NCBI GenBank assembly: GCA_038093975.1
Contig: JBBPTG010000100.1
Location: forward strand, 28,654 to 92,653
DNA length: 64,000 bases
Source of the DNA: Chalciporus piperatus
Taxonomy: Eukaryota; Basidiomycota; Agaricomycetes; Boletales; Boletaceae
Direction: 5' to 3'
In this document: positions 36,406-53,957 of the stretch, in pieces
Layout of the letters: each line of letters starts with the position of its first letter
Numbering within the stretch: position 1 is the first letter of the stretch
Notes under the pieces: model-generated
The model's database searches: none
Seen by the model: only the letters and a program-made list of their open reading frames with translations
What the model was told of the DNA's origin: nothing
Program-made: the position numbers and the translations under genes

Positions 36406-38204
36406 TCAGATTTCGATGAGTGGACCTTGATTCATCCACGGTACTCCATTTGCTGGCGGAGCAGTAGCGACCTGAAGATTGTTGTTTGTCCAGGTTACTG
36501 GTGGTTCGAATGGGTTACCATCGTTTTCATCGACAGGAATAGGGTGGGGAGCACCTACGAGTGCAGGGTCGGGAATAGGAGCCCCAGCGAGATCAGGCCA
36601 ATTTGTAGGCCATTCCTGCTGATCAGGATTCTCTGGCTGTTCCTCTATCACGTTGTCCCACTTGCTCAGATCCGGGTGCCATACAACGAGCTTCATCCAC
36701 CTTGTCGTCCAGTCCCAATTAACCTCGATAGACGTGGACCGTCTGGTAACGATCATTTGAGCGAACATGAGATATTGAATGGCGATGGTGATTACGACGA
36801 TGGCGATGAAAGTGAGAAGGGAGGGGATGAGCATGCGGAGAATCCAACCGTTGCAGATGATGGAGAGTTTCTTAGATCTCTGCGCCAGGCGGAGATTAGC
36901 TGTAGACAACCAAACTTTCTGACCAATCTCGTAAGATGGCGATTCAGAGCGGTGTTTGTCGGCTTGCACCTTCATACACTTCTGAGCTTCTATTATGTTA
37001 TCCTTGGTTTCTTTCAACGTATTGGCAAGCGTGTCAACAAAGTCCGTAGCAGCTGGTGCTTTAGACGTGTAATTCTCTATTCCCATTCTTGGAGAATATG
37101 TGTGCGTGACGTTGAAAGGTGCCTTAGATGTAGAAGCTTGCTTCTTCGAGTTGTATGAGAATTGCGCAATTGGCAACCAATCAGTCCATTCTTCCTGTTT
37201 TTCTGACGTGAATAGACGAAGATACTGTTGTAGATCTCGATTCATACGCTCAGTTTGTCCATCAGTTTGGGGATGAAAGGCGGTGGAGAGTTTGGGCGTA
37301 ATGCCAAGACGTTTGCATATGTCTTTCATTACTTGAGATGCGAATTGCGGACCTCGGTCCGATATGATGGTTTTAGGAAGTCCATGATGTTTCCATACAT
37401 GGGTTAGGTAAAGACGAGCAGTGTCGAGAGCGGTGACTGTTTTGTTGCAGGGAATGAATTTGACTTCTTTGGAGAATCTGTCAACGACGACAAGAATAGA
37501 ATCGAATCCATTCGAGAGTGGCAGATCGGTAGTGAAATCTGCAGAGATATGTTCCCAGGGAAGATCCGGAACTTCAAGGGGACGGAGTTTTCCAGAAGGA
37601 GCATAGTTTATCCCTTTGAAACGTGCACATCTGTCACAGCGTGAGACGTAGTCTTTTACGAGCGTAGCCATTCCTGGCCAGGCGTAGCTGCGCTGGAGCA
37701 GTTCAATTGTCTTTTCATATCCGGGATGCCCAGCAACGGGTGTGTCATGATGAAGCCGAATAATCTCCATGCGGAGATCTTCTTCTTCAGGAACGTATAA
37801 TCTTCCTTTCTTGTCAATCAGAATTCCATCAGACTCTTCACAAATGCCGTGTTCTTTACAGAGTTTCATGACTTCTGTCTCACGTATTTTGAAGGTTGCT
37901 TTTCTGATTTTATCCTTGATCAGATCGGAATCGGTTGAGAGTTGAACCGTTGACGTGGTAGCTATTCTGTCCGGAGGTATTACAAGGACAGCTTTGTTAT
38001 CTGCTTCTATACCGATTGCATGATCTTCTCTTCTTGATAAAGCATCGGCTTTTCCCATTTGGGAACCTGCCTTGTGTACCCATTTGAAATTGAATCGGCT
38101 AAGATATTGAGACCAACGTGCTTGGCGACGATTTAGATCTTGCCGAGTCATGAAGAACTGGAGATTTGCGTGGTCGTTCCAGATTTCGAACTCGTGCTTG
38201 GAAC
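36406..38204 (-). pseudogene. Gypsy pol fragment: RNase H end and integrase
   Basis: Starts (minus) in the RNase H tail (FEIWNDHANLQFFM, NRRQARWSQYLSRF). The H2C2 zinc-binding module follows (H-x3-H in HHDTPVAGHPGYEKT, C-x2-C in SRCDRCARFK), then the integrase core with the D, D and E residues in ADFTTDLP, IISDRGPQFAS and GQTERMNRDL. After RLAQRSKKLS the expected C-terminal domain is replaced by a hydrophobic stretch (WILRMLIPSLLTFIAIVV), suggesting an internal deletion or frameshift. Gag, protease and reverse transcriptase are missing because a plus-strand LTR begins at 38205. Confidence 0.82.
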
Positions 38205-38963
38205 TGTTACGATCACTACCTGCCCCTATCCTTTTTCCTTGTCTCCGTCTCTCCCCGAGTCCTTCCTTGACTTCCCCGAGTCCTTCCTTGACTTCCCCGA
38301 GTCCTTCCTATCACCTAGACGCTTGATCTACTTCATTGATCCCTTATCCGCAGTCGGATCTCCGATCTTAGCTCTAGCCCTCGACTTGTCTGCCTCGTGT
38401 CCCACCTCGTGGACCCTCCAGTGACTCACCCGCCTCGTGTCCCACCTCATGGACCCTCCAGTGACTCACCTGCCTCGTGCCCCGCCTCGTACCCCACCTC
38501 GTGGGCCTTTCTCTGACTCGTTCGCCTCGTGTTCTCCAGACCTACCTCATATCCGGTCGGCATTTCCTTCCTCTTTGTCATTCCTTTGTCATTCTGTCTT
38601 ATGCCTCCGTCCGATCATCGGATGTTCGTCATTTGCCCTTAGTCTTCCCTTTCCCTTCTGGTTGCTTAGTCATTACCTTTGGGATCGTACTTAAGTCCCA
38701 GGTTCTCGCGCTATGACACTCTAACCTTGGTCTACCCGGTCACCTAGCTACCCAGCCTAGTGTCCTATCTAGCTATCCCTCTCTCTCTTTCCTAGTGTCC
38801 AAGCTCTCTATGCAATCCATTCCTTGTTGCTAGATCTTGCCTAGAATCCCTGAGTCGTCGCTCTACTCCTGAGTGAGCGCTTGAGTCTTGTCTGGACATC
38901 CCAGCAAGCTCTCTCCTTGTTCCTACCGGGTCTACGTTTGGGCCTACCCGGCACACACGTAAC
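38205..38963 (+). repeat. LTR-like sequence inserted in the minus-strand pol (759 bp)
   Basis: Begins TGTTACGATCACTACC and ends CTACCCGGCACACACGTAAC, the same terminal pattern as the intact Gypsy LTR but with a diverged interior. It contains a three-unit tandem repeat of CCCCGAGTCCTTCCTTGACTT (38255-38310) and two to three ~48-bp units built on GTGACTCACCCGCCTCGTG (38400-38490). No target duplication was found. Confidence 0.65.
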
Positions 38964-40723: not shown

Positions 40724-41191
40724 TGTTACGATCACTCATTCTTTCCTTTCTCATTACCTTGTACTAAGTCCTAGTCGCTGGTTCGAGTCCTGCCTAGGCC
40801 TCTTATTTCTTGCTTACTTTAGTCAGCTGATGTTCTTCAATGTTCTTTCACATTCCATACTTCGTCATCGCTGACTCGTACTCTTACCAAGCATGACTCA
40901 TTCCTATTCGTCATAGCTTGTTCTTACACATTCCAACCGGTTCCATGCCTGCCCTTAACTCGTTTCTCTACTTATATAAACCCTCGAGTTTCTCCTGTAA
41001 CCTTAACTTAGACCTACGCAATCTAGCTTGGTCATTCCTCGCTTCCTTGAACCCTCTGAGAGTCACCGTCCCACTCTTGAACGGACGCTAGGCCTTAACG
41101 TGGACATCCCATCGTTAGGCTACCTTTGAAACCCTTGTCCTTGACTAGGCTTTTGCGTCTACGCTTTGACCTACCCGGTACAAGCGTAACA
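40724..41191 (+). repeat. 5' LTR of the Gypsy element
   Basis: Begins TGTTACGATCACTC and ends ACAAGCGTAACA. TATATAAA is at 40973-40980, which predicts transcription start near 41004. Confidence 0.93.
40973..40980 (+). promoter_or_regulatory. TATA box of the Gypsy LTR
   Basis: TATATAAA located ~31 nt before the sequence TAACTTAGACCT (41004-41015), which is the likely RNA 5' end and is complementary to the primer-binding site. Confidence 0.7.
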
Positions 41192-41239: not shown

Positions 41240-42531
41240 ATTTCCCAACGACCTCGCCTCGACACCTCTCGTTGGGGCCCCCCACGAGAGACCGCTAATC
41301 CACAGAACCCCGAATCTTCTGACTCGGGCTCACCTGAAGAGGAAGACCCCTCTAACCCCTACGACACCTCGGATCTTTACGACGAACCAATCACCACCCA
41401 AGAGGAACAAGAAGAAACCCTTCACCTCTCCCACGAATTTTCCTCAGCTGTAACCATCCCAAGGTCACCAACACCACCGTCACCGACCCCAATATCCCGA
41501 AGAGCTCCACAGTTCCCTGTGTCGCCTGCTCCCCCACGAACCCCAGCTTTCCCCACTCCTTCCCTTCCCGCGCCCGCATTTGCACCGGGAGCGTATCAGA
41601 TACCCCCTACCTTCGTAAATCCCATGTCGTCCTCAAACCCACTGAACTCCGCATCGGAGCCCCGGACGCCTTTGATGGCTCCTTCGAGAAAAGCACCGCT
41701 TGGATGAATTCCATCCAATTCTATCTCACCGTCAACGGCGACGTATACAACACAGATCCCAAGAAGATCGCCTTCGCCTTATCCTACATGTCTAAAGGAT
41801 CAGCGGCCACCTGGGCTGCCACCTTCTGCCGCAAAGCCATCACCGGCGCTACCGTCACCATGGGCACTTGGGCCCAATTTATCACTGATTTCGAAACGGC
41901 ATTCAAACATCACGATACCGTAGGAAATGCCGTTGCCTGGCTTTCCACCAAACGCATGAAACCTCTCAAGAACGGAGAGTATTCCCCTTCCCTCTCGGAA
42001 TTTATTTCGAGTTTCCAAAACCAAGTCGCCCTGTCTGGCATCATCGACAACAACGTCCTAATCGGATATTTCTCCGCAGGGATACCTATCTCCCTTATGA
42101 GAAGAGTCAATAGCATGGATACCGTCCCTACCACGATCGAGGATTGGTACAAACGCACCACCCAGTTCCAGACTCAATGGGAACATGCCAATGAAATCGC
42201 GAATCGCAATCGTAACCCCGCCAAGCCTTTCCGTCCATTCTCCTCTGCCAATCACTCTACCCCCGCCAGAGATCCCAATGCCATGGACGTCGACGCCATC
42301 CGTATCTCCAAGCTCACTCCTGAGGAGCGGAAACGCTGCCAGGAGAAGGGACTCTGCTTCCGCTGCAGGAAAGCTGGACATCGGTCCAACGCCTGCCCAG
42401 AATTCTCCTCAAACCAGAAAACCCCGAGGAAGGTTCAAAAGGTTGAGGAAGAAATTCCCTCGCTGATCGAGATAGATGATGAGGATGAAACCACCGTTCG
42501 TAAAGTAGCCTTTGTCACAAAGGGTTTTTAG
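41240..42531 (+). pseudogene. Gypsy gag with lesions
   Basis: Gag makes the virus-like particle. The acidic/Pro-rich N-terminal region reads in one frame from a CCACC-ATT at 41240, where an ATG would be expected, to about 41640. The capsid then continues in another frame (LRIGAPDAFDGSFEKSTAW, FYLTVNGDVYNTDPKKIAF) to the stop at 42531, with first Met at 41704. A nucleocapsid zinc knuckle CFRCRKAGHRSNAC (C-x2-C-x4-H-x4-C) is intact at about 42357-42398. The start-codon loss and the one-base shift near 41630 suggest this copy cannot make full gag; alternatively it initiates at 41704. The end of the frame carries the frameshift signal. Confidence 0.78.
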
Positions 42532-42561
42532 ACCGGGAAGCTCTGCCGACGCAAGCTTCCC
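42522..42561 (+). promoter_or_regulatory. Predicted -1 programmed ribosomal frameshift signal (gag-pol)
   Basis: The slippery heptamer G GGT TTT at 42522-42528 is in the gag zero frame (AAG GGT TTT TAG) and is followed at once by the gag stop. Six nucleotides later an 8-bp perfect stem forms between GGGAAGCT (42535-42542) and AGCTTCCC (42554-42561) with an 11-nt loop. Slipping by -1 enters the pol frame, which is open from here through the protease to 46220. Confidence 0.82.
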
Positions 42562-45500
42562 CAGTCACGTGTGCACCTGTACTTGTAAAGTCGCGAAAGC
42601 GCTCTATGCAAATTCCCATACAGATTATCGTTCCCTCGCACACGATGAAAGCCGTCGAAACCCGCGCCCTCATTGATAGCGGCGCAGACATCTCCTGCAT
42701 CGATTGGGCCTTCGTACGTAAAAATCGAATCCCAACCACTCGACTCGAAACCCCCATTCGAGTTCGAAACGTCGACCAAACCGCAAACAAAAGCGGAATG
42801 ATACTCTTCACCACCACCCTCTTCCTCGACATCGAAGGACTTGCGCAAGAAGTAACCTTCCACGTCATGAACTGCGGAAACGAAAACGTCATCCTAGGTC
42901 TCCCATGGCTCGAAAAGGCTAACCCAATCATCGATTGGCGTCGACGAACCCTCTCACTGTCAGAATCTATCGACGAGTCAAAAAGGTTATATGCTATGCA
43001 CGCTTCAGCCTGTAAAACCAATGACCGACTCTTCACTCGACCTACTCCTCCCCCTCGACACTCCTATGTAACCCCGGAGATCGACAAACAACTCTATGAC
43101 TACCTAGATTCTGAGACCGAATCCACCTTCCTCAATCGCGCCTATGAAAACCATACCCTAAACCGCATCATTCGTTGCGGCTCACGCTTTGTCCCAAACC
43201 ACGTTGTTGCTCGCCTCACCAGAGCTACGGAACTTGCAATCGCGGCCGAGCTGGCCAAACCTAAATCTACCCTTCCGAGAGAATATGCCAAATACGCCTC
43301 GGTTTTTGACGAACCTTCGGCCGGCCACCTTCCTCCGTCTCGAATTTACGACCACGAGATTAACCTGAAGGAATCCTTCGTCCCCAAAATCGGGAAACTC
43401 TATCCGCTATCCCCAGACGAGAAAAAAGCCACAGAAGACTTCCTTGAAGAAAATCTTCGCACCGGAAAGATACGTCCTTCCAATTCCCCCCAAGCATCTC
43501 CCTTCTTCTTTGTCAAAAAGAAAGACGGAAAACTCCGACCCTGTCAGGACTATCGATATCTGAATGAACACACTACCCGCGACGCCTACCCCCTTCCCCT
43601 TATTGGAGATCTCGTTGACAAACTCAAAGACGCTAAGATCTTCACCAAATTCGACGTACGATGGGGTTACAATAATGTCCGTATCAAAGACGGACACCAA
43701 TGGAAAGCTGCCTTCCTCACTCACAAAGGCCTCTTTGAACCGACTGTGATGTTCTTTGGGCTGAACAACTCCCCGGCTACCTTCCAACGCTTCATGAACG
43801 ACTCTTTTAGAGACATGATAGCTGAAGGATGGCTCGTCATCTATATGGACGACCTTCTCATCTTCTCCCCCGACGACACCACTCACACTGTTCGCACCCA
43901 ACGAATTCTCGAGCGCATGCAGGAGCTAGATCTCCATCTTCGCTTGGAGAAATGCAACTTTGCCGTAAGCGAGGTTGAATATCTCGGCATGATCGTCCGC
44001 CCAGGAGAGCTTGCCATGGATCCCATCAAACTCGACGGCATCTCTCAATGGCCCATCCCCTCCACCGTTAAGGAAGTTCGCTCATTCCTTGGCTTCGCCA
44101 ACTTCTACCGACGTTTTATCCCAAACTACTCTTTGGTCGCTCGCCCTCTGATCGATCTAACCAAAAAGGACCATCGATGGGATTGGACCAACGCCTGCCA
44201 AGATGCCTTCGCTCGCCTGAAACAGATGTTCTTGGCAAAACCCGTCCTGCGCTTCCCTGACCTCTCCAAACCTTTCGCCATCGCGACAGATGCCTCCAAA
44301 TTTGCCTCTGGAGGTATACTCCTCCAAACCGACGCCAATGGCGATTGGCATCCCTGTTCGTATCTCTCCCAGTCCTTCGGTGACGCAGAGCGAAATTACG
44401 ATATTTACGATCGTGAACTTCTTGCTGTCATTCGCGCACTAAAGACCTGGCGGCACTACCTCCATGGCTCTTCCTTTCCCGTCCAGGTGTTCACCGATCA
44501 CAAAAACCTGACCTACTTTCGCCAACCCCAGAATCTGAACCGTCGGCAAGCCCGCTGGCTCCTTGACCTTGCCGACTTTGACTTAAAAATGATCCACGTC
44601 CCTGGCTCGTCCCTCGCCGGTCCTGATGCCTTATCTAGGCGTGCTGATCACTTCCCCACTGACGCCGATGACAATGCGGGTACCACTCTGCTACCACCCT
44701 CGCTATTTGTCCGTGTCATTGACTCTGCGATGAACAATCACATCTCCAATCTTTCCAAGGACGACCCGTTTCTCCTCACGGCGTTGCAGGCCATTGACGG
44801 TGACATCCCTGCACCTTTCCGCTCTAGACTGGCAGACTGGCAGATGACTAACGGCGTCCTGACCTATCAGGGTCGTGTCTACATCCCACCGGATGAAGAC
44901 CTACGTCGCACCGTAGTCCAACGATGCCATGATCATCCCACCGCCGGCCACCCTGGCTATCTCAAGACTCGGCAATTAGTCGCCGCTGAGTTTTGGTGGC
45001 CCGGACTTGCCCAATTCGTTCGCAAATACGTAGAAGGGTGCGCAACCTGCCAACAGAATAAGGCAAACACACATCCAACTACCCCCCCTCTGATGCCAAT
45101 ACCCTCAAAGAGTTCTAAACCATTCCAACAAGTGTCCTGTGACCTCATCACCGACCTACCCATTTCCAATGGCTTTGATTCTCTGTTGGTCGTGGTCGAC
45201 CACGGGCTTACAAAGGGGGTAATTCTTTGCCCTACCAAGAAAACCGTCACAGCCGAAGGGATCGCTTCCCTCTTTTTCCACAAAGTCTACTTAAGATTCG
45301 GTCTCTACGACAAAATCATCAGTGACAGAGGACCGCAATTCGCATCCGAATTCGCTCGTGAACTAGGACGAATCCTCGGATATGACCTTTCCCTTTCCAC
45401 CGCCTATCATCCCCAGTCTGATGGGGAAACCGAACGTGTCAACCAGGAAGTTGAGACTTACCTTCGAATCTATTGCGGAGATAACCCCATATCCTGGGCT

Positions 45501-46220
45501 GATTCTATTTCCCACGCAGAATTTGCACACAATCATCGGCCCCACTCTGTCACCGGCAAATCCCCGTTCTACCTCATGATGGGATATGAACCCCGTCCTC
45601 TTCCTGCGGTGATCGCCGACTCCGCATTACCCGCTGTCGAACTTCGTCTCCACTCTCTCACCGCTGCCAGAGACGAAGCGCTCGCCTCACACGAACTCGC
45701 CAGACAAGTGATGGCTGCACGAACTCGACAGAAGTTCAAACCGTTCGCCAAAGGAGACAAAGTCTGGCTGGAAGCGAGGAACCTCAAACGATCCCTTACT
45801 TCCCCAAAGTTCGCCCCAAAACGGGAAGGACCCTTTACCATCACCCAAGTCCTATCTCCGCTATCCTACAGACTCCGTCTCCCACAGACGTGGAGAATTC
45901 ACCCCGTGTTCCATGCTTCTCTGTTATCGCCCTATCGCGAAAACCCCGTCCACGGACCGAACTTTCCCGCTCCACCGCCTGACCTAATAGAAGGCGAAGA
46001 GGAATACGAAATTGAAAGAATTCTCCGTCACCGAGGTTCTTCCGGGCGCCACTCGTACCTAGTCCGCTGGAAAGGATATTCTTCCGATGAAGACCGCTGG
46101 CTTAAAGAAGCAGACCTTACCCACGCCACAGATGTCCTAGAAAACTATAAAAAAGCTCACCCGTCCGCTTTTCCCTCCTTCTCAAGATCCCCATCTTCTG
46201 TCAAACGTAAAACTCGCTGA
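42526..46220 (+). CDS. pol: Gypsy pol: protease, RT, RNase H, integrase, chromodomain
   Basis: Open -1 frame relative to gag, with the first Met at 42606 (1204 aa from there). Domains in order: aspartic protease (LIDSGADIS); reverse transcriptase (catalytic VIYMDDLLIF); RNase H (ATDASKFASGGIL, YDRELLAVIRALKTWRHYL); H2C2 module (HDHPTAGHPGYLKT, CATCQQNK); integrase core with D, D and E in CDLITDLP, IISDRGPQFAS and GETERVNQEV; GPFTITQVLSPLSYRLRLP; and a C-terminal chromodomain (YEIERILRHRG...YLVRWKGYSSDEDRWLKEADL). The chromodomain places it among chromoviruses and may direct insertion to H3K9-methylated chromatin. No stop or frameshift seen. Confidence 0.95.
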
Positions 46221-46226
46221 TAAACC

Positions 46227-47354
46227 ATGTCCGTTCCTACTACTCCTTCTTCTACTATAGGTTCTCCTACTATCTCTTCTGTTTCCTCTTTAACTTCGTC
46301 TCCTTTATCTTCTCCCACCTACCCACCGGGTCTACCCATCCCGTCGTTGCCTATGTCCCCCACTCGTCCCCCAACGCCTAACTATTCCATCGCCGCTGAT
46401 GCCGGTTGGAGCAATAGCTGGGACACTCCTAGGGAGGAAGCCATCGTTCCAACCTCCCTTGCCAATACAACCGTCACTCCCGTCGTCTCCGTCGATATCC
46501 CTCTCGCCGCTCACCGCCTTCGCGATGAACTCCTCGACACCACAGTCATGGATAGGATGTCCCGCCTTCTTCTTGACTCTCGTCTCTCCGTTCCCATCGG
46601 AGCCCACCTAGACATGGGATCACCACTCTTCGCACTCTATCGCGCCTATCTCCAAGCCGCTCGCCTTTCCAACCTATTTCCTACGCTGTCCCTCGTCTAC
46701 CGAGCAAACAGAGAGATCGAAATCCTTCGCTCCGTTCAAGCCGATCTGACGGCCAACCTCAGCATCGCACTCTACGAGTTGCAGATGCCTGAATTCCTCG
46801 AAGACCTCGATCGCTACCTACGAGAGTCTGCGGCAGCCAGCCATTCCTCTCCCCCCGTCATTGGAGTCCCAACCTCCACTCTCTCCACCCCGGACGCTTC
46901 CCCTCTCAACTCTGAAGAGGAAGCTGTCTTCTTTCGAGCTGAGCAACGCTTCGCTGAGGACCAGGGTACTGCCGTCCTACCTTCCACACATCCCCGGTAC
47001 CATGATGCCTGCTTCGTATGCCACCGACTTGGGCATCGTCGTGTCAACTGCCCCGTATATCAATGTCCCATCTGTTTCATCTGGGCACCAGGACATATTC
47101 AAGGTCGTTGTCCACTTCGGCGTACCCGCCAGCAGTCCACCACCTCCTCATCCTCTTCCAATTCCCGTCGATCAGGGAATTCCCATCGACCTCTTAGACG
47201 AACCACCCCTTTATACTCCAGGATTTCGAATCCGCGTCCTACCCCAAATCACCACAGCGACGACGACACAGTCTGGGATGGTGACGACCCTCACGACGAG
47301 GTCGCGTATGCAAACATGACTGGGTCCCCGGGACTTTACGGTAGAGACTTTTGA
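46227..47354 (+). CDS. Third ORF of the Gypsy element with zinc knuckles
   Basis: Intact 375-aa frame that begins 6 nt after the pol stop, in the same frame (TGA TAA ACC ATG). The first ~65 residues are Ser/Thr/Pro-rich. The centre is helical and gag-like (PLFALYRAYLQAARLSNLFPTL, REIEILRSVQADLTANL). A Cys/His cluster then appears: CFVCHRLGHRRVNC is a canonical C-x2-C-x4-H-x4-C knuckle and is followed by CPICFIWAPGHIQGRC, a knuckle with a wider spacing. The Ser/Arg-rich tail ends shortly before the 3' LTR. It could be a second nucleocapsid-like RNA chaperone or a duplicated, diverged gag. Translation might use reinitiation or stop readthrough. I know no named family for it. Confidence 0.85.
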   Translation: MSVPTTPSSTIGSPTISSVSSLTSSPLSSPTYPPGLPIPSLPMSPTRPPTPNYSIAADAGWSNSWDTPREEAIVPTSLANTTVTPVVSVDIPLAAHRLRDELLDTTVMDRMSRLLLDSRLSVPIGAHLDMGSPLFALYRAYLQAARLSNLFPTLSLVYRANREIEILRSVQADLTANLSIALYELQMPEFLEDLDRYLRESAAASHSSPPVIGVPTSTLSTPDASPLNSEEEAVFFRAEQRFAEDQGTAVLPSTHPRYHDACFVCHRLGHRRVNCPVYQCPICFIWAPGHIQGRCPLRRTRQQSTTSSSSSNSRRSGNSHRPLRRTTPLYSRISNPRPTPNHHSDDDTVWDGDDPHDEVAYANMTGSPGLYGRDF

Positions 47355-47399: not shown

Positions 47400-47867
47400 T
47401 GTTACGATCATTCTATTCTTTCCTCTTCTTTCCTTGTACTAAGTCCTAGTTGCTGGTTCGAGTCCTGCCTAGGCCTCTTATTTCTTGCTTGCTTTAGTCA
47501 GCGGATGTTCTTCGATGTTCTTTCACATTCCATACTTCGTCATCGCTGACTCGTACACTTACCAAGCATGACTCATTCTTATTCGTCATAGCTTGTTCTT
47601 ACACATTCCAACCAGTTCCATGCCTGCCCTTAACTCGTTTCTCTACTTATATAAACCCTCGAATTTCCTCCTGTAACCTTAACTTAGACCTACGCAATCT
47701 AGCTTGGTCATTCCTCGCTTCCTTTGAACCCTCTGAGAGTCACCGTCCCACTCTTGAACGGACGCTAGGCCTTAACGTGGACATCCCATCGTTAGGCTAC
47801 CTTTGAAACCCTTGTCTTTGACTAGGCTTTGCGTCTACGCTTTGACCTACCCGGTACAAGCGTAACA
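47400..47867 (+). repeat. 3' LTR of the Gypsy element
   Basis: Same ends as the 5' LTR (TGTTACGATCA to AAGCGTAACA). Its right flank continues directly into KDZ transposase coding sequence, so the retroelement truncates that transposon. Confidence 0.93.
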
Positions 47868-50377
47868 TAGCCAAGGTCTCATTGTGGAACACAGGTCACC
47901 CACACATCCTTATCATTTTGACAAGGTTCGAGTCGGCCATTTGGAAGTCGAGCAATTCCCGTCTGTGAGGGCTGCTCATTCCCCTTGTAGAGGGGGAGAC
48001 AATGTTCAAGTTGGCCCATAAATTTTTGTTGATCTCTCCATCCACCTGCCCTGCCCCTCGGATAAAGTTTGGTGCATATCTCTGGAAACATTCAGCCTGA
48101 TGTCCATGGACATGCCATATTCCGATGCCTGGCACCAACTCCACGGCCGACGGTATCTTGACATATTCGCTACCCTTGACTCGTTGCCGCAGCTGCTTCA
48201 TGTATTGGCAGTTGATGTCATAGAAGACGATCACCCTCGGAATGCCAGTGATGTTGTATTCCAATGCATGCGCCAATGCATAATCCATATTGACTTGCCT
48301 GTGATCAAGCTCATTGGATATGCTTGTTGGCTGGTGGGCAAACAACATTACCTCTCACCCTTCTGGAAGTCCACCACTGCATGCAGAATGAAACATCCAT
48401 GTCTGGCACATGCACACCCACCTCGATCGGGTGATCTGTGACTTCAAGGTATTCCTTGTACCTCTGGCTTTCTACCATAAAGCCTGTCCCAGACATCAGC
48501 CAAACTTGGTTGTCGGGCCGCTTGTCAGGCAAATGCTCTGCCTTGAAATTGCCATTCATAACAATCGTTCGGGTGATCATCCATCTTGCCAATTGTGAGA
48601 TGTGACTGGACATGTGTCATGGGTGCTCATACACTCACGGAGCTATATTTCTAACATGATCGATGCTCATGTTGATCCCTGGCTGAGGGCATGCTGAACA
48701 GAACAAAGCCAGAAAACCCAACCCAGGAGATGCTTTGTATGGCCGTATCCATTGTTACGATCACTCATTCTTTCTTTCTTTGTTACCTTGTACTAAGTCC
48801 TAGTCGCTGGTTCGAGTCCTGCCTAGGCCTCTCATTTCTCACCTTGCTTTAGTCAGCGAACATTCCTTAATGTTCTTTCACCTTCCACGCTTCGTCATCG
48901 CTGACTCGTATGCTTATCGAGCATGACTCATTCCTATTCGTCATGACTTGTTCTTACGTATTCTGACTTGTTCTATGCCTGCCCTTAACTCGTTTCTTCA
49001 CTTATATAAACCCTCGAGTTTCCTCCAGTAACCCTAACTTAGACCTACGCAATCTAGCTTGGTCATTCCTCGCTTCCTTGAACCCTCTGAGAGTCACCGT
49101 CCCACTCTTGAACGGACGCTAGGCCTTAACGTGGACATCCCATCGTTAGGCTACCCTGAAACCTTTGTCTTTGACTAGGCTTTTGTGTCTACGCTTTAAC
49201 CTACCCGGTACAAGCGTAACATCCATTCCACTTGAGCAGCTTTAACAACGTCCACAGTCGAGCCGCACGGATCAGCTCTCGATATCTGTTCTATGACCAC
49301 AATGAGCTAGGCTTTGGCCGATCAAAGAAGTCGCTCACAGGCACCAAATGCAGAAATGTGTTGGACATTATCTGCTGAATCTTGCTAAAATAGTTCGATG
49401 CAGAGGTGCCACATTCCAGATTGTCTCGGATGAAGTCGTCAAGGAGCCGAAATGTAAACACAGTGCTTGGCTCTTTGATGGTAGAAGGTAGCAAGTGAGC
49501 CCGAAAGAGCTGTTTATGCACTTTATCAGCCGCTGGACAGTTGCAAAATCTTATGTTCACGTAGTGGACCCCAGATGTATCTATGACCAGGATAAACCCT
49601 GGCTCTGACGGAGGCTGTAAATGGGCTGGCCAATGGGCAACATCCTCATCCTCCCATGCCTCGTCCTCCAAGATCATCGGAGGCAAAGGTGCAGTATGGG
49701 GACATGGACTCTCTGAATGTCCTAGATGTAGTTCCAACCCTGTCTGCCAGAGAATACTCAGTCATTGACCCGCCATTTTGTCAGTGTAAACACGACATAC
49801 CCGATGTAGTGTGGATTCCTCAAAACAGTCCCCTGTCCATTGTGACACCCTGTGAAGAGGATGCTGTCTGTGTTCTGTTCTGCAACAAGCAGTGCAGAAG
49901 ATAGGTTGCATAAAACAATCCTGGCAGTTATATACTCCGTCTCTCTGACAGATCTTGCAAATTCTCTCTGGAGGTGTCTCCATATCCAGCCAAGCATTGA
50001 GGTATTCATCTTTCATCTCCAGAGACTCCCTCTAAGTAATCATTTTGGGTCTTAGGCAAATACACTTAGTGATGCAATCTGTGCAAACACACTCTCAAGC
50101 ATACCTTGGGTTTAGGCAGTTTCAAACGAGGTAGAACATATCCCACATCATCTGGGACATATATCTGATCAGTAGTTCTTGGTGTGAGGCCATTACCCAG
50201 TGGCGTTTCCTCCCTAGGAAGCTGAGATGCTGAATGAGGCGTAGCAGCATTGCTTTTTCTGTGCTTGTTCCCCTGAGGCGTGATCTTGACCATCTTCACC
50301 TTTGATCCCTTCTTGTCGAACTTGACCTCTTGCACTGGACTCCATGGTGTTGTCTTCTCGATCTTAGGCTTGACCAT
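47868..50377 (-). pseudogene. KDZ (Kyakuja-Dileera-Zisupton) transposase, truncated and interrupted
   Basis: Minus-strand gene starting MVKPKIEKTTPWSP at 50377. A CxC2-like cysteine cluster lies around 49780-49990 (ICKICQRDGVYNCQDCF, FCTACCRTEHRQHPLH), then a spacer with HYVNIRFCNCPAADKVHKQLF and NRYRELIRAARLWTLLKLLKW. The catalytic region shows ARHGCFILHAVVDFQKGER, VIVFYDINCQYMKQL, IGIWHVHGHQAECFQRYAP, GAGQVDGEINKNLWA and MSSPHRRELLDF. Introns such as the one between QKGER and QVNMDY splice normally. The gene is broken in two ways: a solo LTR (48753-49221) interrupts the exon between KLLKWNG and YGHTKHLLGW, and the C-terminal part is lost at the Gypsy 3' LTR. A short stretch near 48430 also seems deleted. 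Confidence 0.88.
48753..49221 (+). repeat. Solo LTR inside the KDZ transposase, TSD TCCAT
   Basis: 469 bp, same family as the LTRs of the 40724-47867 element. It is flanked by perfect 5-bp duplications TCCAT at 48748-48752 and 49222-49226, so it inserted here as a full element and then recombined to a solo LTR. Confidence 0.93.
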
Positions 50378-53576: not shown

Positions 53577-53905
53577 TTGGCCCATGTGTACCACTGGACA
53601 CTCACTGTATCCAATGCATCGGCCCATGCGTACCACCCGACACTCACTGCAGTGGCCCATCCCTACCCATGAAAGCTCAATGAGTCGGCCCATTCGTACT
53701 ACTGGACACTCACTCCATCGGGCAATCTGTACCACTGGACACTCAGTGCATCGGCCCATTCCTACCCATGGAAACTCACTGAGTCGGCCCATTCCTACCA
53801 TGACACCCACTCCTTTGGCCAATTCCTACCATGACACCCACTCCATCGGCCAATTCCTACCCATGGAAACTCAATGCATCGGCCCTAACCTACCCATGGA
53901 AGCTC
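53577..53905. repeat. Minisatellite of ~33-bp units
   Basis: About ten imperfect units of the form CATCGGCCCATTCGTACCA followed by CTGGACACTCACTG, with variants ending CCATGGAAACTCAATG. It sits between two inverted LTRs. The open frames here simply translate the repeat. Confidence 0.85.
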
Positions 53906-53957
53906 AATGCAATGGCTGGCCCAGTCGTAGTCTTGGAGTCTCAGTTAATGGGCCCAC

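Follow-up and report, generated by a model that had tools for sequence, protein, structure and literature searches.

The stretch analysed here, referred to below as the window, is 64,000 nucleotides (nt) of the Boletaceae species Chalciporus piperatus (NCBI GenBank assembly GCA_038093975.1, contig JBBPTG010000100.1, positions 28,654 to 92,653 of the forward strand; our coordinates count from its first letter), and it holds an element of about 7.1 kb bounded by long terminal repeats (LTRs) of 468 nt each. By content the element is a Ty3/gypsy chromovirus; the original prediction, made from the letters of the window, had named it a fungal chromovirus. The domain order of its pol is protease, reverse transcriptase (RT), RNase H and integrase, with a chromodomain at the C-terminal end; protease, RT, RNase H, the integrase zinc-binding domain and the chromodomain all exceed their Pfam cut-offs, and the integrase core (rve) is matched below its cut-off. 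The gag of the window copy matches PF16297, Ty3_capsid and zf-CCHC (zinc knuckle), every one below the curated cut-off. Our subject is the point at which gag gives way to pol.

The gag-pol junction

The gag frame ends AAG GGT TTT TAG. The heptamer G GGT TTT thus stands in the gag frame and abuts the stop codon, as had been predicted, and pol lies in the −1 frame relative to gag. That frame is indeed open from the slip site to the pol stop, running from 42504 through to a stop at 46218-46220, and the overlap of gag and pol is only 28 nt. Six nt behind the heptamer begins the perfect 8-bp stem of the original prediction, in which GGGAAGCT at 42535-42542 pairs perfectly with AGCTTCCC at 42554-42561 around a loop of 11 nt. 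Three features of eukaryotic −1 signals are present here: a heptamer of the form X XXY YYZ read in the gag frame, an open −1 frame and a stable structure about 5-9 nt downstream.

Among 20,000 dinucleotide shuffles, 12 produced a fully paired stem of 8 bp or longer at 5-9 nt behind the site. The RNA fold of 42529-42570 (42 nt) reaches −19.4 kcal/mol with a z of −4.2, and 1 of 200 shuffles was equally good; a 122-nt fold gives a z of −4.0. The predicted fold lengthens the stem by three pairs outward and three inward. Because the outer three pairs are not kept among genomic copies (C.A at 42533/42564 in 29 of the 84 places described below), the functional structure most likely consists of the 8-bp stem and the spacer of 6 nt. 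We also tried a pseudoknot between the apical loop CGAC (42547-42550) and GTCG (42590-42593), 4 bp found by eye, and rejected it, as sites 42550, 42590 and 42592 vary. A search of 42400-42800 against Rfam gave no match at E values of 1 or below.

The frames, the heptamer, the stop and the stem are plain in the letters, as is their conservation among copies. From this geometry, and from a heptamer and stem that the great majority of the 84 places share, the junction is very probably a standard −1 programmed ribosomal frameshift signal, which is how the original prediction had interpreted it. Most ribosomes would read gag to the TAG and produce Gag, and a minority would be held by the hairpin while GGU in the P site and UUU in the A site are being decoded. 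These held ribosomes would slip back by one base, pair anew with GGG and UUU and translate through ...K-G-F-L-D-R... into protease-RT-integrase, so that a small fixed share of Gag-Pol would be made. Ribosome slippage at this point, its frequency and its stimulation by the hairpin are what we infer from the arrangement. It is a well-conserved example of a known mechanism and no new mechanism, and the element family adds a case to it: a compact one, from a fungal element with many copies. We met no earlier description of this element family in the titles and abstract openings surveyed, which is no proof of absence.

The window copy itself has a frame break of its own near the start of gag. The gag ATG is in frame at 53 of the 54 loci with the start-region pattern (71 examined), and the sole exception is the window copy, which probably makes no full Gag from its own gag ATG; copies with an intact gag frame exist elsewhere in the genome. 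Its third open reading frame (ORF3), which lies behind pol, shares about 66% identity with most of the others listed. In the RT stretch it agrees at 99-100% with a group of at least a dozen copies, and its element ends have no target site duplication, the printed flanks being different. Because the ORF3 and RT identities differ and the flanks are without a target duplication, the window copy looks like a recombinant. The absent target duplication therefore speaks about the window copy and not about the family, and with the window copy broken and apparently recombinant, the signal is to be taken as a property of the family and assessed across its copies.

Table 1. Positions of the element's parts and of the junction features in the window (all on the + strand)
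Feature	Position	Strand	Basis or remark
5′ LTR	40724-41191	+	96.2% identity to 47400-47867 over 471 columns
gag (capsid-like, zinc knuckle)	41624-42531	+	frame broken a few codons past the ATG in the window copy
pol (protease, RT, RNase H, integrase, chromodomain), in −1 to gag	42504-46220	+	open frame, Pfam
Slippery heptamer G GGT TTT, gag frame	42522-42528	+	sequence; unchanged at 82 of the 84 places
gag stop TAG, adjoining the heptamer	42529-42531	+	sequence
Spacer, 6 nt, heptamer to stem	42529-42534	+	sequence
Putative stimulatory stem-loop	42535-42561	+	8-bp stem 42535-42542/42554-42561; inner 3 bp 42544-42546/42551-42553
First ATG past the gag stop, pol frame	42606-42608	+	sequence; possible reinitiation site
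Chromodomain, pol residues 1168-1217	46005-46154	+	PF00385, E 5.2e-11
ORF3, zinc-knuckle-like protein	46227-47354	+	behind pol; genome and database matches
3′ LTR	47400-47867	+	pairs with the 5′ LTR at 96.2% identity

Conservation among genomic copies

The genome contains at least 40 matches to the element at the DNA level and 134 RT matches that span several families. From 40 + 152 listed matches we fetched 87 distinct junctions, mostly those reaching the start of the protease query and so not every copy. All of these aligned except L115. L112 and L116 were excluded because their sequence ahead of the protease is chimeric or unrelated, which leaves 84 places, the window copy included. The excluded L112 retains GGGTTTTTAG and is without the 5′ arm of the stem.

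By letters, the heptamer is GGGTTTT in 82 places, TGGTTTT in one and GGGTTCT in one. GGGTTTT followed by a stop is intact in 80 of the 84 (78 TAG, 2 TAA), all eight stem pairs are formed in 77 and seven of the eight in the other 7, and heptamer, stop and full stem occur jointly in 74. The original prediction had named as counter-evidence any copies that lack the heptamer or the stem and still keep gag and pol in separate frames. What we found is four places that depart from heptamer plus stop (one change in the G run, one in the T run and two base losses) and seven with a single unpaired stem position. The two base losses, L091 and L094, have the GGGTTTT with one base missing behind it; there gag continues in the third frame and the −1 frame meets a stop immediately, so that a −1 shift could not lead into pol, and both look like broken copies. 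L091 and L094 also have further changes in common, and the pair may have been duplicated or else moved by proteins of other copies.

The 28-nt overlap contains two heptamers of the X XXY YYZ form, AAAGGGT (starting at 42519) and GGGTTTT (starting at 42522). We rejected AAAGGGT as the slip site, since it is altered in 9 of the 84 places (intact in 75) versus 2 for GGGTTTT, and a further count against it is that G in the Y positions of a slip heptamer is unusual in eukaryotes.

Substitutions were counted over 69 distinct rows of the alignment. Changed cells amount to 178/5658 (3.1%) in upstream gag and 232/6486 (3.6%) in the protease, as compared with 4/483 in the heptamer, 21/414 in stop plus spacer, 7/552 in the 5′ arm of the stem, 0/552 in its 3′ arm, 13/759 in the loop and 69/3105 in 42562-42606. 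Restricted to non-CpG positions, the 22 core sites have 9/1518 changed cells (0.59%) versus 253/12351 (2.05%) in the background, a rate to which 472 of 100,000 random draws of sites were equally low.

Other families, other readings and relatives elsewhere

Two further chromovirus families in the same genome, B (L117) and C (L118), had their frames read at one locus each, and in both of these pol is in −1. Family B, at 57% identity in the RT stretch, has a gag that ends GAA AAC TGA and a 12-bp stem (−19.7 kcal/mol) 7 nt behind GGAAAAC; its 44-nt junction word occurs at 30 places with at most 3 mismatches, exactly in 22 of them and with an exact heptamer in 29. Family C, at 54% identity in the RT stretch, has GGGAAAA in the gag frame with the stop 12 nt further on, and its junction word occurs at 69 places with at most 2 mismatches, 62 of them exact. 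L119 was tried as a fourth family and set aside, there being no readable gag ahead of its protease.

These families bear on a different way of expressing pol, in which ribosomes terminate at the TAG and reinitiate at the pol-frame ATG at 42606, making Pol without Gag. No ATG occurs in 42532-42605, so that this ATG is the first past the stop in any frame, and several relatives have a Met here too (SMQIP/SMRIP-like): it is internal in P0021, P0140 and P0148, and it is the called start of the pol ORFs P0141-P0144, P0147 and P0149 (those of P0145, P0146 and P0150 have called starts further on). The same element also has what looks like a coupled pair in pol and ORF3, where all seven junctions read have the ORF3 ATG 3-6 nt past the pol stop (two in the pol frame, five in the +1 frame), an arrangement more in keeping with coupled termination-reinitiation than with readthrough or a frameshift. 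The ATG at 42606, however, sits 74 nt past the gag stop. In the one stretch read for each of families B and C there is no pol-frame Met between the gag stop and the start of the protease match, and the ATG that adjoins the gag stop in family C is in the wrong frame. Reinitiation would moreover leave the heptamer, the stem and the −1 position of pol in three families unexplained, and we consider it quite unlikely.

Splicing could join the two frames as well. Removal of 42500-42564 (GTAAAG...CAG, 65 nt) would fuse gag and pol in frame while dropping the stop, the heptamer and the stem. The phase fits, for this pair as one among 15 in-phase GT-AG pairs in the stretch scanned, and the donor GT is retained in 82 of the 84 places, but 29 of them no longer have the acceptor AG, and the kept heptamer and stem would again go unexplained. 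A relative, P0021, is a gag-protease fusion without about the stretch 42500-42564, that is, roughly the slip site and hairpin, and this fusion may equally be the result of splicing or of a deletion. We regard splicing as highly improbable. About as improbable is slippage of a single tRNA, in which the P-site tRNA on UUU would slip on U UUU with UAG waiting in the A site. The five T that lead into TAG and the heptamer that abuts the stop would suit it, but it has no need of three G, and GGG is intact in 83 of the 84 places; as it yields the same fusion peptide, it amounts to a variant of the −1 frameshifting favoured here.

A wider view of the slip site comes from Gag proteins. Of 192 gag homologues, 120 were listed and examined, and the sole organism name among these 120 is Imleria badia, which is a bolete. 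The C-terminus is Asp-Phe (DF) in 63 of the 120, preceded by M in 31, L in 17, T in 7, K in 6 and Q in 2; each of these five residues has a codon that ends in G, and Met has only ATG. Other ends among those listed are SF (3), NF (2), EF (1) and DS (1), many more look cut short, P0045 reads past DF, and the window gag ends GF. When the window gag is aligned with 12 homologues, the stretch from the acidic tail to DF differs in both length and sequence, a pattern suggestive of constraint at the nucleotide level, with the reservation that the 12 were picked from the DF-ending homologues, so that their common end is a result of row choice. In P0148, a relative 44% identical, the pol frame reads H-G-F-L-N across this point and aligns with G-F-L-D of the window. 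Read back into codons, H-G-F-L fits C ATG GAT TTY TAR, implying a GGATTTY site and a gag that ends M-D-F; for DF-ending relatives this site is derived from amino acids. A protease scan of IMG/VR gave one weak locus at 32% identity and was not used.

We lean slightly towards the view that, throughout this fungal chromovirus lineage, the slip site and not the function of Gag dictates the ending Asp-Phe-stop: the linker would vary, the codons of GGRTTTT plus stop would stay, and the window family would have gone from GGAUUUU to GGGUUUU. If this is true, the evolution of frameshift sites can be read directly from databases of Gag proteins, and fungal ribosomes use a type of site like that of luteoviruses and umbraviruses.

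In addition to the row choice and the back-read codons just mentioned, several points weigh against the frameshift interpretation. The original prediction had called for an alignment of copies that would look for conservation and for compensatory changes in the stem, and only the first of these came out in its favour; the copies show no covariation, as no stem pair is altered on both sides in them. The conservation must in part be shared descent, because the copies are young and of a single family. The core has 1 CpG among its 23 sites, and CpG sites change fastest. When the core mask was slid along the region, 9 of 220 other positions were equally low, seven of them at most 20 nt from the true place. 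As to the other families, the shuffle controls apply to the fold of the window family, GGAAAAC of family B deviates from XXX in the P site, and family C has a weak structure, of −9.3 kcal/mol across 60 nt.

Several neighbouring features complete the description of the locus. ORF3 has two zinc-knuckle-like motifs, seen by eye, and is matched at 110 places of the genome and by 19 proteins in databases; a Pfam match was found in 0 of the 13 family members scanned. A sequence search of the PDB up to E 1 returned three matches, of which a Gag protein scored best (E 0.035), and a predicted structure was too poor for comparison (mean predicted local distance difference test score, pLDDT, 47.9). In one relative, P0121, the chromodomain end of pol continues into ORF3 with no stop between them. 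Beyond the element, an additional LTR at 48753-49221 is 91% identical to the 5′ LTR and has no adjoining internal part that we could see, and a minus-strand open frame at 36406-38307, with sequence like RNase H and integrase, looks by eye like a fragment of a second gypsy-type element. Another open frame on the minus strand, at 47896-48354, resembles part of a KDZ-type transposase by its motif, and imperfect repeats with a spacing of about 33 nt occupy 53606-53927.

Comparison with known systems

Barley yellow dwarf virus, a luteovirus, has UAG directly behind its slip heptamer. That heptamer is GGGUUUU (PMC4737148), the same as in the fungal element, and a stem-loop likewise lies 6 nt 3′ of the site (PMC5009743). 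The virus adds a loop-loop contact with a region about 4 kb away (PMC5009743). Pea enation mosaic virus RNA 2, an umbravirus, has GGAUUUU (PMC4737148), which resembles the GGATTTY derived above for the Met-Asp-Phe gag relatives, and it differs from the fungal element in being an RNA virus with its stop 3 nt behind the heptamer (PMC5009743). Both GGGUUUU and GGAUUUU are functional in plant viruses (PMC4737148, PMC5009743). In wheat germ extract, the pea enation mosaic virus site changed from GGAUUUU to GGGUUUU worked at 112% of the wild-type level, and mismatches in the P site are tolerated (PMC4737148). On mammalian ribosomes, G_GGU_UUU is among the shiftiest −1 heptamers (PMC5009743).

Closer to the host, −1 and +1 frameshifting both occur in fungal LTR retrotransposons, as PMC5009743 implies where it cites a 2003 survey of LTR retrotransposons that includes elements with pol in −1. 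The totiviruses of Cronartium ribicola differ from the element described here in being double-stranded RNA viruses whose sites are predicted and whose predicted structure is a pseudoknot and not a simple stem (PMC6796417), but they share with it a GGGUUUU-like heptamer on the ribosomes of a fungal host (PMC6796417).
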